A DNA stretch of 64,000 nucleotides from Levilactobacillus huananensis (GTDB taxonomy: Bacteria > Bacillota > Bacilli > Lactobacillales > Lactobacillaceae), in NCBI RefSeq assembly GCF_003946145.1, contig NZ_RHOC01000002.1, positions 1 to 64,000 of the forward strand, in the 5' to 3' direction. Made by a program: the position numbers and the translations under genes. The notes below the pieces were generated by a model that ran no database searches, was not told the DNA's origin, and saw only the letters and a list, made by a program, of their open reading frames with translations. Of the stretch, positions 1-3,244 are shown piece after piece; within the stretch, counting starts at the first letter, position 1, and every line of letters begins with the position of its first letter.

Positions 1-85
1 TCCCATGCCGAACACGGAAGTTAAGCTTCAGCACGCTGATAGTAGTTGGGGGATCGCCCCCTGCGAGGATAGGACGTTGCCACGC
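1..85 (+). rRNA. rrf: 5S ribosomal RNA, 3' part (cut by window edge)
   Basis: The window opens inside a 5S rRNA. The conserved central segment (CCGAACACGGAAGTTAAG) and the 3' helix ending in GGACGTTGCCACGC are both visible. About the first 30 nt lie outside the window. It is the last gene of an rRNA operon transcribed rightward, and no tRNA follows it. Confidence 0.95.
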
Positions 86-213: not shown

Positions 214-285
214 GGGACTTGTCGTTAGTTTAATGAACAAATAGAACCTAAAAACAAACTATCTTGGAAATGGGTGGAAAATATT

Positions 286-1572
286 ATGAAGACGTATCGT
301 AGCTACCGCCTGAGTCTGGGGTGGCAGATCTTGATTGGGCTGGTACTGGGTATTGTACTGGGATCAATCTTCTATCAAAACAAGATTGCCATCACAGCCA
401 TGCAGAACATCGGGAACATGTTTATCGGGTTAATCCAGATGATTGTTTTGCCAATCGTGGTGTCCTGTCTAACCGTTGGAATTGCCAACATGGGCGACAT
501 TAAGAAGCTTGGCCGGGTCGGTGGGAAGACTATTTTATACTTCGAAATTATGACGACCATTGCGATTGCCCTAGGGTTGCTGGTCGGCAATATCTTCCAT
601 CCAGGGGACTTTATCGACATTCATCAACTACATAGTACCGATATTAGTCAATACGTTTCCTCGGCCAAGTCTGCTAAGGATTCCGGTATCTGGGCCACAC
701 TGATGGGGATTATTCCCACCAACTTCTTCAAGTCACTCTCCGAGGGTGATATGATGCCTATTATTTTCTTCTCTGTCTTCTTTGGACTGGGGACTGCGGC
801 TATTGGCAAGCAGGGCCAGGTCATCATCGACTTTCTGGATGCGGTCTCTCAAGTCATGTTCCGAGTGACCAACTGGGTCATGCATACCGCACCAATTGGG
901 GTTTGTGCCTTAATTGGGGTAACTATTGCACAAATGGGCCTGTCGGCTTTAGCCCCCTTGGGTTACTTTATCCTGTTAGCCTACGCCACTATGGCGCTGT
1001 TCATTGTGGTCTTTATGGGACTTGCTGCCCGGATGTTTGGTTTTCACCTGAAGGATTTACTTTATGTCATTAAGGATGAAGCAGTTCTGGCTTTTTCAAC
1101 GGCGAGCTCTGAAGCTGCCTTACCTCGTTTGATCGACAAGATGGACAAGTTTGGTGTTAGCCAGGGGATCGTGTCGTTTGTGATTCCAACCGGGTATACG
1201 TTTAACCTGGACGGGTCTGCAATCTATCAATCACTGGCAGCGCTCTTCCTTGCTCAGGCTTACCATATTCACCTGAGCCTTGGCCAACAGATTACCCTCC
1301 TCGTAGTCCTTATGATTACTAGCAAGGGCATGGCGGGCGTTCCAGGGGCGTCCTTCGTGGTGCTGTTGGCTACGGTATCCACTATTGGCGTGCCAATGAG
1401 TGGGTTGACCTTTATTGCCGGGATTGATCGATTAGTCGACATGGGTCGAACGGCCGTTAACGTGGTCGGGAACTCATTAGCTACGGTTATTATCGGCAAG
1501 TCCGAGCATGAATTTAGCGAAGAAAAGAGTCAAGCCTATCTTGCTAAATTACGAGAAGCGAGTGCCAAATAA
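286..1572 (+). CDS. Dicarboxylate/amino acid:cation symporter (DAACS family)
   Basis: Sodium- or proton-coupled uptake of acidic amino acids or C4-dicarboxylates across the cytoplasmic membrane. The 428-residue length and hydrophobic profile fit the GltP/DctA family. Family landmarks are visible: the serine-rich hairpin STASSEAALP near residue 271, NLDGSAIY near 307, GMAGVPGASF near 350, and DMGRTAVNVVGN near 385. The Asp and Arg of DMGRT are the substrate-binding positions known from GltPh and favour an acidic amino acid, but the exact substrate cannot be read. Asn stands where archaeal GltPh has a sodium-binding Asp, as in DctA. A GTG at 274 is in frame; I prefer ATG 286 because a GGGTGG lies 8 nt before it. 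It is monocistronic. Confidence 0.88.
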   Translation: MKTYRSYRLSLGWQILIGLVLGIVLGSIFYQNKIAITAMQNIGNMFIGLIQMIVLPIVVSCLTVGIANMGDIKKLGRVGGKTILYFEIMTTIAIALGLLVGNIFHPGDFIDIHQLHSTDISQYVSSAKSAKDSGIWATLMGIIPTNFFKSLSEGDMMPIIFFSVFFGLGTAAIGKQGQVIIDFLDAVSQVMFRVTNWVMHTAPIGVCALIGVTIAQMGLSALAPLGYFILLAYATMALFIVVFMGLAARMFGFHLKDLLYVIKDEAVLAFSTASSEAALPRLIDKMDKFGVSQGIVSFVIPTGYTFNLDGSAIYQSLAALFLAQAYHIHLSLGQQITLLVVLMITSKGMAGVPGASFVVLLATVSTIGVPMSGLTFIAGIDRLVDMGRTAVNVVGNSLATVIIGKSEHEFSEEKSQAYLAKLREASAK

Positions 1573-1619: not shown

Positions 1620-2115
1620 CATTGATAATGGCAATAACCGATTAATAGTGGCTTGCTGTGCTTGCGGGGGTGATTCCCATCAGCCCATGGGTCACGGCGA
1701 CCGGCTAGTAATCAGATAAATTTAGAATTGTGGTTGTTAGTCGTATCGACCGTCAGAGATTAAAAACCAACCTAGTTGAAACGGCGTCAGTTACGAGAAG
1801 TTCTTCTCACCTCAGGGTTCCCCCAGGGGTAGAGCAGGTTACAGTTGTTGTAACGCTATTCGGACTAACACGTCAGTGCATCACAGTGGAATAGTGCCGA
1901 GAAAAACGATGTAACTCTAGCTTGCGTTATCCATTAAGTGGCCGAATCCGATTAGCTCCAAACGAGTTCAGAGAAGGTCAGTCGTCATACGGTTGGTTGC
2001 AACACCAACGACGGCTGAATAAAGGCAGCTAATCGATTCCGTTCAAAGTCTAGTGGTCGAACCTCCGCATCAAGCTACGGAGTCCGGGCACGGGAAAGCT
2101 AGAGAACAGATCTCC
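1620..2115 (-). ncRNA. Candidate structured RNA downstream of the M-box
   Basis: About 500 nt without a plausible gene on either strand, between the M-box/small-ORF region and the bidirectional terminator. It is rich in hairpins: 1838-1843/1849-1854 (GTTACA/TGTAAC), 1856-1861/1889-1894, 1978-1986/2010-2018 with inner stem 1992-1996/2005-2009, and 2063-2067/2078-2082. A long-range stem, 1942-1957 with 2027-2041, encloses one of them. I do not recognise an Rfam family; size and ornateness recall ROOL/GOLLD-type RNAs, but I cannot confirm this. The leftward orientation is inferred from the riboswitch and its promoter. A decayed gene is the alternative. Confidence 0.4.
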
Positions 2116-2208
2116 TCAAAGCGTCAACCAAGAGGTGTGAACTGGCAATAACTTTCCCACCGGCGAGTAATAACTCGCTCCAGGATCATCAATATGTGGC
2201 GTTGTCAT
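2116..2208 (-). CDS. 30-codon small ORF behind the M-box riboswitch
   Basis: ATG at 2208 is preceded by AGGAGGTGAT, a full match to the 16S anti-Shine-Dalgarno tail, at normal spacing. It encodes a 30-residue peptide beginning MTTPHIDDPGAS and ending at TGA 2116-2118. It has no signal peptide or membrane segment. The Asp-Pro-rich start resembles in character Mg2+-responsive leader peptides such as enterobacterial MgtL, but that is only an analogy. A perfect GCGAGT/ACTCGC hairpin (2163-2178) lies inside the coding part. It could be a real peptide, a regulatory leader, or the remnant of a lost magnesium transporter gene. Confidence 0.45.
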   Translation of the reverse strand: MTTPHIDDPGASYYSPVGKLLPVHTSWLTL

Positions 2209-2250
2209 GTTCAATCACCTCCTAAAGTAAACGACAGTGACAACTGTGAT

Positions 2251-2285
2251 AAATTAAAAGCGCTTAGCCACGACCGGCTAAGCGC
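2251..2285 (-). terminator. Riboswitch expression-platform terminator
   Basis: A 10-bp GCGCTTAGCC/GGCTAAGCGC stem is followed on the minus strand by TTTTAATTT. It lies between the M-box aptamer and the AGGAGGTGAT ribosome site, as expected for Mg2+-dependent transcription attenuation. Confidence 0.8.
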
Positions 2286-2310
2286 ACAATTAAAAAGCAA
2301 CTTGTGTACA

Positions 2311-2480
2311 GATTATGCCAGTCGTTGAGTTTTAGCACTATACGGCGTAGTTAAAAACTGCATAACAGCTACATTAGAACAGGCCTTAATTTGACCTGTA
2401 CAGCTGACTCATTGGCGTTTCTCGACGTTTCTGAGCAGTAGCATTTTCCGTATAGGAGCCTCACCTAACAGCTTCTACTT
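2311..2480 (-). promoter_or_regulatory. M-box (ykoK-type) Mg2+ riboswitch aptamer
   Basis: On the minus strand the conserved M-box blocks appear in order: GTTAGGTGAGGCTCCTATA (about 2470-2452), AAACGTCGAGAAACGCC followed by CAATGAGTCAGC (about 2431-2403), and GTGCTAAAACTCAACGA (about 2339-2323). These match the Bacillus subtilis mgtE leader RNA as I remember it. Known M-boxes fold when Mg2+ is plentiful and favour a terminator, which is present at 2251-2285. Known targets are Mg2+ transporters (mgtE, mgtA/corA types); none follows here. Confidence 0.9.
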
Positions 2481-2494
2481 TATCTTACAAGTTC

Positions 2495-2523
2495 AGTTTA
2501 ACTGATTTTCACAGCGATTGCAA
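2495..2523 (-). promoter_or_regulatory. Probable promoter of the M-box transcript
   Basis: On the minus strand TTGCAA and TAAACT are separated by 17 bp, which would start RNA about 10 nt before the aptamer. Each hexamer matches 4 of 6 consensus bases. Confidence 0.4.
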
Positions 2524-2680
2524 CCCTTTAGCTTAATGAAAAGCGAATGATTATTATAATAACGAACTAAAAATATATTTATAAAATTCTACTTAATTTA
2601 GAATGATTCTTGACTAGTTGATAAAGAGCGGTTATCCTGAGGGTGAACCATAACTATTTAGAATGAGGGGAGCAATTATC

Positions 2681-3244
2681 ATGAACTTTATTGGCACTGC
2701 ATTACCCGACTTTCAAGTTAACGCGTTTCAAGCAGGCGAGGTTATTCCGATTACCCCGGCAACCCTGCAGCATCACTGGTCGGTCTTATTCTTCTACCCA
2801 GCTGATTTTTCCTTTGTCTGTCCCACGGAACTCGGTGATTTGGCCGATCATTATGCGGATTTCCAGAAATTAAATGCTGAAATCTACAGTATTTCGGAAG
2901 ATACGGAGTTCGTTCACCAGGCATGGCATGCTCAAAGTCCCGAGGTTGGGAAGGTAGATTATCCCATGATTGCCGATCCAGCCGGTGTTCTTGCCCGGCA
3001 CTACGACGTGTTAGATGAACAGGCAGGCCAGGCCTACCGTGGGGTCTTCATCCTCGATGAGGCGGGACGGGTTCGCTCTTATACCGTGAATGATATGGGG
3101 GTTGGCCGCAATGCCAAAGAGATCCTCCGCACGTTGGCCGCCGCACAATTCGTGGCGGAACACGGCGATCGGGTCTGTCCAGCCAACTGGCATCCAGGCG
3201 AAAATACGCTGAAGCCAGGCACTGACCTCGTGGGTAAACTTTAA
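2681..3244 (+). CDS. ahpC: Peroxiredoxin AhpC
   Basis: Typical 2-Cys peroxiredoxin that reduces hydrogen peroxide and organic peroxides in the cytosol. At 187 residues it has the standard AhpC length. The peroxidatic Cys47 lies in FVCPTEL and the resolving Cys166 in VCPANW. ATG 2681, 6-8 nt after GAGGGGAG, is the better start; an upstream in-frame ATG (2663) overlaps the ribosome site. Its usual reductase AhpF is not adjacent, so another disulfide reductase may serve it. It is monocistronic, with a terminator behind. Confidence 0.93.
   Translation: MNFIGTALPDFQVNAFQAGEVIPITPATLQHHWSVLFFYPADFSFVCPTELGDLADHYADFQKLNAEIYSISEDTEFVHQAWHAQSPEVGKVDYPMIADPAGVLARHYDVLDEQAGQAYRGVFILDEAGRVRSYTVNDMGVGRNAKEILRTLAAAQFVAEHGDRVCPANWHPGENTLKPGTDLVGKL

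Follow-up and report, generated by a model that had tools for sequence, protein, structure and literature searches.

The window analysed here is a 64,000-nt stretch of DNA from Levilactobacillus huananensis, and all coordinates refer to it. On its minus strand lies an RNA locus headed by an M-box (ykoK), a Mg2+ riboswitch customarily found ahead of Mg2+ transporter genes. The aptamer (2310–2479) is full length: the RF00380 covariance model aligns to it over positions 1–169 of 169 with 134.7 bits (E 3.8e-30; gathering score 44), and no M-box other than this copy, at 2479–2310, was found in the 2.29 Mb assembly. A first-pass annotation had described a complete M-box with its promoter and intrinsic terminator, followed by a 30-codon frame and a bidirectional terminator at 1579–1618, with no Mg2+ transporter behind it. 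The covariance scan, run as a test capable of refuting that reading, matched the M-box, and both terminators and the frame are borne out below; no Mg2+ transporter gene occurs up to the last terminator, the next gene being a convergent symporter. The range originally assigned to the feature, 2251–2523, takes in the promoter, the aptamer and the first terminator, and the conserved feature continues to about 1577.

The promoter is the one element of that description that stands less firmly. Its putative motif (2495–2523), read by eye, consists of TTGCAA (2523–2518), a 17-nt spacer and TAAACT (2500–2495), and both TTGC and the TA...T of the -10 element are invariant across the genus alignment. 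Because the consensus score in the M-box genera hardly exceeds that of shuffled sequences (mean 7.76 of 12 versus 7.15), and the pattern scan of the window does not list the promoter at 2523–2495, it is regarded as plausible but unproven. Between the riboswitch promoter and a TCAAGAATnATTCTAAA-type inverted repeat there is a conserved GTTATTATAATTATTATT block. The repeat, which is PerR-box-like, adjoins a divergent gene for an AhpC-like peroxiredoxin (window 2540–2663; same place in relatives).

The expression platform follows directly from the aptamer. The riboswitch terminator (2256–2285) was found by a pattern scan, which returned two terminator-like sites for the window against a mean of 1.1 in shuffles, and it consists of a stem at 2285–2260 followed by TTTT. 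The 3′ strand of aptamer helix P1, ACGACTGGC (2317–2325), shows 9 nt of complementarity with this terminator, in its 5′ arm and loop (2278–2270). It is the predicted antiterminator strand, with which the terminator would compete. Among 56 loci from two genera, Levilactobacillus (g1) and a second genus (g22), a hairpin and T run occupy the terminator position in all 56, and complementarity of at least 7 nt inside the arm and loop is found in 53, being missing in L004, L030 and L138; 6.1% of 1120 shuffled arms reach this length. Antiterminator and arm change together among loci, with both sides varying, as in ACGACTGGC:GCCGGTCGT and ACGACTAGC:GCTAGTCGT. Competition between the P1 strand and a terminator is the usual layout for termination at high Mg2+. 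This M-box is therefore predicted to be of the OFF-at-high-Mg2+ type, with the long RNA expected at low Mg2+.

Behind the terminator lie a Shine–Dalgarno sequence, AGGAGGTGAT (2214–2223; SD-like in relatives), and a small ORF, MTTPHIDDPGASYYSPVGKLLPVHTSWLTL, of exactly 30 codons, running from ATG at 2208 to a stop at 2116. Its stop is common to 32 of 33 Levilactobacillus loci, and within the genus its length runs from 28 to 33 codons, with in-frame changes. Two other frames overlap it, one open in 26 and the other in 15 of the 33 loci. After the ORF comes a conserved structured RNA (1657–2115), delimited by the genus alignment and by covariation. In the genus it extends about 450 nt past the stop, roughly five times the length of the ORF, and near-invariant blocks in the 33-locus alignment reach approximately window position 1660. 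Within it lie a core shared between genera (1794–1910), made up of a UUCUC/GAGAA closing helix and two hairpins, one with a UGAC-type and one with a GNRA loop; a long stem-loop domain of helices 6–8 (1944–2039), in which 21 of 26 pairs have changed on both sides; and a near-invariant 3′ hairpin region, CCCATGGGCTGATGGGAATCACCCC (1661–1691), to which the window adds one extra C. The unit closes with a two-way intrinsic terminator with a 20-pair stem (1577–1620), found by the pattern scan and shared with the convergent symporter gene; a hairpin and T run follow the RNA in 55 of the 56 loci of the two genera.

The related loci were also inspected for an intact transporter, and the 33 Levilactobacillus loci instead share the small ORF and the conserved RNA with no long shared frame: among frames of at least 20 codons that start after the small ORF, none has a stop common to more than 13 of these loci. 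The earlier suggestion that the output would be a tiny peptide or a non-coding RNA is thus supported on both counts, since the locus holds a small ORF that is conserved together with a large RNA that covaries.

Conservation within the genus is nearly complete. When a 1090-base stretch was searched against 58 genomes, 33 of 35 Levilactobacillus genomes (that of the window included) matched well past the aptamer. In 31 of these the main match exceeded 600 bases at 70–100% identity, and in G023 and G025 a 419-base match was accompanied by a second one of 32 bases close to the 3′ end. Such a match was missing from G006 (72% complete) and from G030 (99% complete), the latter carrying neither M-box nor RNA. 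Outside the genus, essentially the aptamer alone was matched by this search. A 20-base core of the 3′ hairpin was found in 31 stretches among genomes of 84,980 species, 27 of them titled Levilactobacillus and 2 Lactobacillus sp.; the other two (L039 and L045, from Synechococcales and Bacteroidetes MAGs) were taken as chance from their titles. A second M-box occurs in G016, the sole such case among 18 further Levilactobacillus genomes with an M-box. It lies at 1501–1664 of L211, and the gene behind it (1772–3163) encodes an ABC permease (PF00528), which is not a known Mg2+ transporter.

The structure of the RNA was predicted with RNAalifold from an alignment of 22 sequences (A2), giving 91 pairs, 31 of them with compensatory changes. 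For counting, seven pairs involving the Shine–Dalgarno sequence were left out, leaving 84; of 1843 cells, 96.7% were paired, against 35–45% in slid controls. Double changes affected 31 of the 84 pairs, a count that none of 500 shuffles reached (17.7 in shuffles), and 123 cells versus 36.3; further pair types did not rise above shuffles (142 of 500 as high). These counts were made on the same sequences from which the structure was derived, and the shuffles ignore relatedness. A set of 19 representatives is 52–94% alike. G-U cells outnumbered A-C cells by 247 to 20, which makes the minus strand the likely RNA, with the qualification that the structure was predicted on that strand, favouring this outcome. 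Folded as a single sequence, the window RNA was only 1.5 sd better than shuffles, and 7 of 100 shuffles folded as well.

Several pairings were considered and set aside. RNAalifold suggested that the Shine–Dalgarno sequence pairs directly with AATCACC of the 3′ hairpin, but none of the seven pairs has changed on both sides, and the hairpin is able to fold by itself. A long-range pair seen by eye, CTCTAGCTT:AAGCTAGAG, is broken in L013 and L032, and pairing of GGA[GT]CG in the ORF with CGCUUC in the core has a Ser variant that shows no covariation by eye.

The RNA does not belong to a known Rfam class. At gathering thresholds the M-box was the sole match over the window RNA, with no OLE, ROOL, GOLLD or other family, and no family other than the M-box rose above its cut-off. 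In permissive scans all matches were below the family cut-offs and none was to OLE, ROOL or GOLLD. Of those near the RNA, the best were matches to STnc240 on L101 (39.3 bits, cut-off 55, E 0.0097), to ncr1015 on L195 (39.4 bits, cut-off 60, E 0.036) and to Thr_leader on L197 (30.9 bits, cut-off 55, E 0.084); two microRNA families fell on or near the RNA or terminator of L190. Two more on L032, Termite-leu (E 0.001) and CsrC (E 0.012), lay off the RNA.

The same arrangement occurs in the second genus. Exactly one M-box is present in 23 of 24 g22 genomes, the exception being G338 (88% complete), and in all 23 loci it is followed by the Shine–Dalgarno sequence GAGGTGA and an ORF of 26–31 codons whose stop position varies, with terminator hairpins before the ORF and after the RNA. 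The distance from the Shine–Dalgarno sequence to the final terminator site, ORF included, is 466–514 nt. No sense ORF of at least 100 codons begins within the first 730 nt behind the M-box in these 23 loci, and any post-ORF frame of at least 20 codons has its stop in common among 13 of them at most. RNAalifold predicted 142 pairs in this genus, 57 with double changes.

Alignment of 34 sequences chosen from the 56 loci of both genera yielded a shared core of about 115 nt (A3). In this core 97.8% of cells are paired, compared with 41–61% in slid versions, and 11 of 19 pairs show double changes versus 5.3 in shuffles. A covariance model built from it, R1, scores the window core at 86.3 bits, the window sequence being one of the 34 used to build the model. 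Searched against 397 genomes of the family, with E-values that are rough owing to a short calibration, R1 matched 85 genomes at E<=0.01 and 81 at E<1e-4, the latter spanning seven genera (24 g1, 23 g22, 16 g30, 14 g83, 2 g91, 1 g95 and 1 g34), with one match per matched genome. Weak matches in g90, g21, g25 and g23 (E 7e-4 to 5e-3) are at chance level over about 400 genomes and were excluded. Among 395 genomes of the order 17 matched, and the only two outside the family were weak (E about 0.004), likewise at chance level and excluded.

Beyond the first two genera, 20 of 34 core loci were examined (8/16 g30, 8/14 g83, 2/2 g91, 1/1 g95 and 1/1 g34). An M-box precedes the RNA in all 8 g83 loci and in none of the 12 loci of g30, g91, g95 and g34 (E<=0.1), whose 12 genomes contain no M-box anywhere. 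Among the loci examined, therefore, the riboswitch stands ahead of the RNA in three genera (g1, g22 and g83) and not in the other four. All 12 loci without an M-box (L190–L197 and L205–L208) have a near-consensus sigma-70-like promoter directly 5′ of the ORF, with 9–11 of 12 matches, a level (9 matches) that 45% of shuffles also reach.

M-boxes elsewhere in the family provide the usual counterpart. A survey of 29 loci, drawn from 22 genomes in four genera, with downstream genes judged from ORFs, found P-type ATPases behind the M-boxes of g19 and g24, where one locus each was compared (L099 and L097, respectively), the other g19 downstream genes having been judged at most by eye. Both compared ORFs agree best with models of Mg2+-type P-type ATPases, below the whole-protein cut-off, and both are cut by the end of the locus. 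Behind the g23 M-boxes (L114–L117) there is an ORF of about 270 aa; those of L115 and L117 have no Pfam match, and L115 has weak, partial similarity to a P-type ATPase in NCBIfam. The gene may be a broken ATPase, or the frame may be the wrong one.

The neighbourhood of the RNA is conserved along with it. The convergent gene at 274–1572 (plus strand), which lies outside the RNA gene, encodes a GltP-like dicarboxylate/glutamate symporter (PF00375; best NCBIfam model NF008440, below cut-off), and a convergent symporter is found in 62 of 76 loci, among which each of the seven genera occurs; flanks were short in several loci. A symporter tree groups g1, g22, g30 and g91 with support and g83 weakly. 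It does not order the genera, and so does not tell gain of the M-box from loss. Since the peptide-plus-RNA locus recurs in seven genera beside the convergent symporter, with an M-box in only some, it appears to have been inherited vertically and is the conserved unit, the M-box being an optional way of controlling it. A mobile-element origin was rejected: the window RNA has no match in phages or plasmids, and the 13 plasmid records matching the g22 stretch do so solely within query positions 29–186, which is the M-box part. The end of a 5S rRNA occupies window positions 1–85, so that the RNA locus adjoins an rRNA operon; 5S matches also occur near the RNA locus in L192 and L207, from other genera.

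An SD-like sequence (by a lenient pattern) and an ORF of 26–33 codons are present in all 76 loci of the seven genera, and in each a [DE]PG[AS] motif begins at codon 7 or 8. ORFs were chosen by SD and ATGAC in 56 loci, and in the other 20 the motif itself served as a selection criterion, so its presence there is partly by construction. An S..KGK motif is often present as well across the seven genera. For pN/pS, 60 of the 76 loci were compared codon by codon from their ATG with no alignment step, and the 16 that have indels or come from genera with a single locus were excluded. In frame 0 the ratio was 0.55, 0.49, 0.50 and 0.63 in four groups and the lowest each time, the other frames giving 0.72–1.25; values of 0.49–0.63 correspond to weak apparent selection on the peptide. 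Synonymous sites are constrained too, the Gly codon being GGA and the Ala/Ser codon ending in G in 76 of 76 loci, which indicates an RNA-level constraint inside the ORF, so that part of the ORF's conservation is non-coding. The ORF also takes part in a long-range helix (2090–2160) in which ORF codons at 2160–2149, GTGGGAAAGTTA, face post-stop RNA at 2101–2090, TAGCTTTCCCGT. Its GGGARR:YYTCCC pattern is present in 75 of 76 loci, being absent in L208, the g34 locus. A compensatory GGGAAG:CTTCCC version occurs in 6 loci and may be one event in one genus. In 19 of the loci the two strands lie 49–77 nt apart and the helix measures 6–20 bp.

Taken together, the comparison shows a complete M-box with a predicted terminator and antiterminator, followed by a single small ORF that is conserved and by a conserved, covarying RNA of about 450 nt with an intrinsic terminator at its end; beyond the ORF most loci retain no other reading frame. 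The reading preferred here, to which a probability of roughly 0.6 is given, is that of a structured RNA gene induced by Mg2+ starvation, acting mainly through its RNA, the folding of which is probably tied to translation of its own ORF. Its parts are held with different degrees of confidence. That the M-box turns on an RNA-plus-ORF unit and not a transporter can be stated with high confidence, and function of the RNA itself is highly probable. The RNA is also reasonably likely to be the main effector in preference to the peptide; the odds lean somewhat against the further proposal that translation gates RNA folding.

The mechanism would operate as follows. By established M-box behaviour, the aptamer would fold in ample Mg2+ and the P1 3′ strand would be held, ending transcription near 2256. 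As Mg2+ falls, this strand would pair with the terminator arm, allowing a full RNA of about 0.9 kb to be made. The folded RNA would then be the main effector, and the 5′ ORF may, with less certainty, be translated to steer its folding. Codons 17–20 (GTG GGA AAG TTA) would provide one side of the long-range helix spanning the ORF end, so that a passing ribosome must open it, and early ribosome drop-off at the acidic-proline motif (DDPG, DPG or EEPG) would let it close. The occurrence of the helix in 75 of 76 loci is compatible with such drop-off-driven refolding without demanding it. Because MgtL drop-off at acidic-proline motifs under low Mg2+ is known, the RNA may, by analogy, sense Mg2+ twice, through the aptamer and through the ribosome. 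A broader version is offered only tentatively, as possible rather than probable: a new class of large RNA in at least seven genera of a single lactic-acid-bacterial family, its fold set by ribosomes on its own acidic-proline ORF, would sense translation or Mg2+, with the Mg2+ riboswitch as a second sensor in three of the genera.

The genome encodes one CorA, the importer found, and seven E1-E2 ATPases, of which the two largest, the only ones compared, match best as Ca2+ types, below cut-off; no MgtE was found in the genome. With its sole M-box driving a structured RNA, no MgtE found, its two largest E1-E2 ATPases Ca2+-like and CorA as importer, this organism is suggested to meet Mg2+ starvation by RNA rather than by induced import. 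A group of lactic acid bacteria may thus respond to a lack of magnesium through RNA, in a way not described before.

Other explanations were weighed against this reading. It is possible, though somewhat unlikely, that the transcript is a trans-acting base-pairing RNA resembling AspocR, or a protein-titrating RNA resembling Rli55, made at low Mg2+ with the ORF as a minor passenger. Both types of riboswitch-controlled non-coding RNA have been described in Listeria (excerpts of PMC8079631), and the layout is the same, with a riboswitch and premature termination ahead of the RNA; yet the length and intricate fold exceed the needs of a pairing sRNA, and a passenger ORF fits poorly with retention of the Shine–Dalgarno sequence and ORF in 76 of 76 loci. 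That same retention, together with in-frame length changes in the genus, the [DE]PG[AS] and frequent S..KGK motifs in seven genera and the lowest pN/pS in frame 0, speaks for the peptide as the product, a small protein under M-box control acting on a transporter or the ribosome, with the long RNA as a structured 3′ UTR serving to protect the mRNA or to localise it. This is nevertheless judged improbable: selection is weak (0.49–0.63), the C-termini are variable (26–33 residues), synonymous sites are invariant, Pfam, NCBIfam and PHROGs gave no family match for the three or four peptides tried, and the post-stop RNA, about five times as long as the ORF, covaries strongly and carries conserved sequence blocks. 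A leader-peptide-like ORF with alternative pairing might also suggest a very long attenuated leader of a gene further downstream, but the 20-pair terminator here, the terminator hairpin behind the RNA in 55 of the 56 g1 and g22 loci and the convergent orientation of the next gene in 62 of 76 loci, representing all seven genera, render this most improbable. Finally, a decaying remnant of a unit that lost mgtA or mgtE, which the M-boxes ahead of Mg2+ P-type ATPase genes in other genera of the family might evoke (L097 and L099, best as Mg2+-type, ORFs cut), is refuted as a full account and has a negligible probability, as the same RNA and ORF persist with compensatory changes in 33 of 35 Levilactobacillus genomes and in six more genera, four of which have no M-box in the loci examined.

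The preferred reading, an RNA gene switched on by Mg2+ shortage, departs from known systems in different respects. As a member of RF00380, the M-box resembles its class in that its aptamer is complete and its terminator and antiterminator are arranged for OFF at high Mg2+, and differs in its target: Mg2+ transporters are usual, also in sister genera, and here a small ORF and a structured RNA take their place. AspocR and Rli55, the riboswitch-controlled non-coding RNAs of Listeria whose ligand is vitamin B12 (excerpts of PMC8079631), are alike in that a riboswitch terminates or releases an RNA other than the mRNA of its usual gene, and the present locus similarly has a riboswitch ahead of an RNA without a conventional protein gene, a 30-codon ORF being present. 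The ligand is different, however, this RNA has a conserved ORF and a large covarying fold, and AspocR is antisense to its neighbour, whereas the RNA here overlaps no gene. Since AspocR and Rli55 exist, the kind is known, though in the literature searched not with Mg2+ as ligand or with such an RNA.

Large ornate bacterial RNAs form a second point of comparison, represented by ROOL and GOLLD (excerpts of PMC12286853) and by OLE, an RNA of about 600 nt tied to Mg2+ stress (excerpts of PMC10898510). Loss of OLE is felt at HIGH Mg2+, whereas the RNA described here should be made at LOW Mg2+. No description of it appeared among the literature matches listed, or by word search in PMC11109978, PMC8632094, PMC6429828, PMC3766115 and PMC12286853. 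If the broader, tentative version above is true, this would be the first large structured RNA known under a Mg2+ riboswitch. It represents an RNA class absent from Rfam, conserved and present as one match per matched genome in food bacteria, so that its function is open to direct genetic tests.

The closest parallel for the ORF is MgtL, the leader of mgtA in Salmonella and E. coli. At low Mg2+, ribosomes translating MgtL drop off at its EPDP motif, and the mRNA adopts another fold (excerpts of PMC11282234). The small ORF shares the sequence features of such a leader, being short and preceded by a Shine–Dalgarno sequence, with early acidic and proline residues, and both systems have a Mg2+-controlled transcript and overlapping alternative RNA pairing. 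In contrast to MgtL, no Mg2+ transporter gene lies behind this ORF, which is followed by a terminator and a convergent neighbour, an M-box stands ahead of it, and the motif is [DE]PG[AS] instead of EPDP. Acidic pairs alone are insufficient for drop-off according to the same excerpts, and a single DPG or DDPG is a weaker drop-off motif than the EPDP of MgtL. If translation gating nevertheless proves true, the locus would provide a natural RNA that reads the same ion through two independent sensors.
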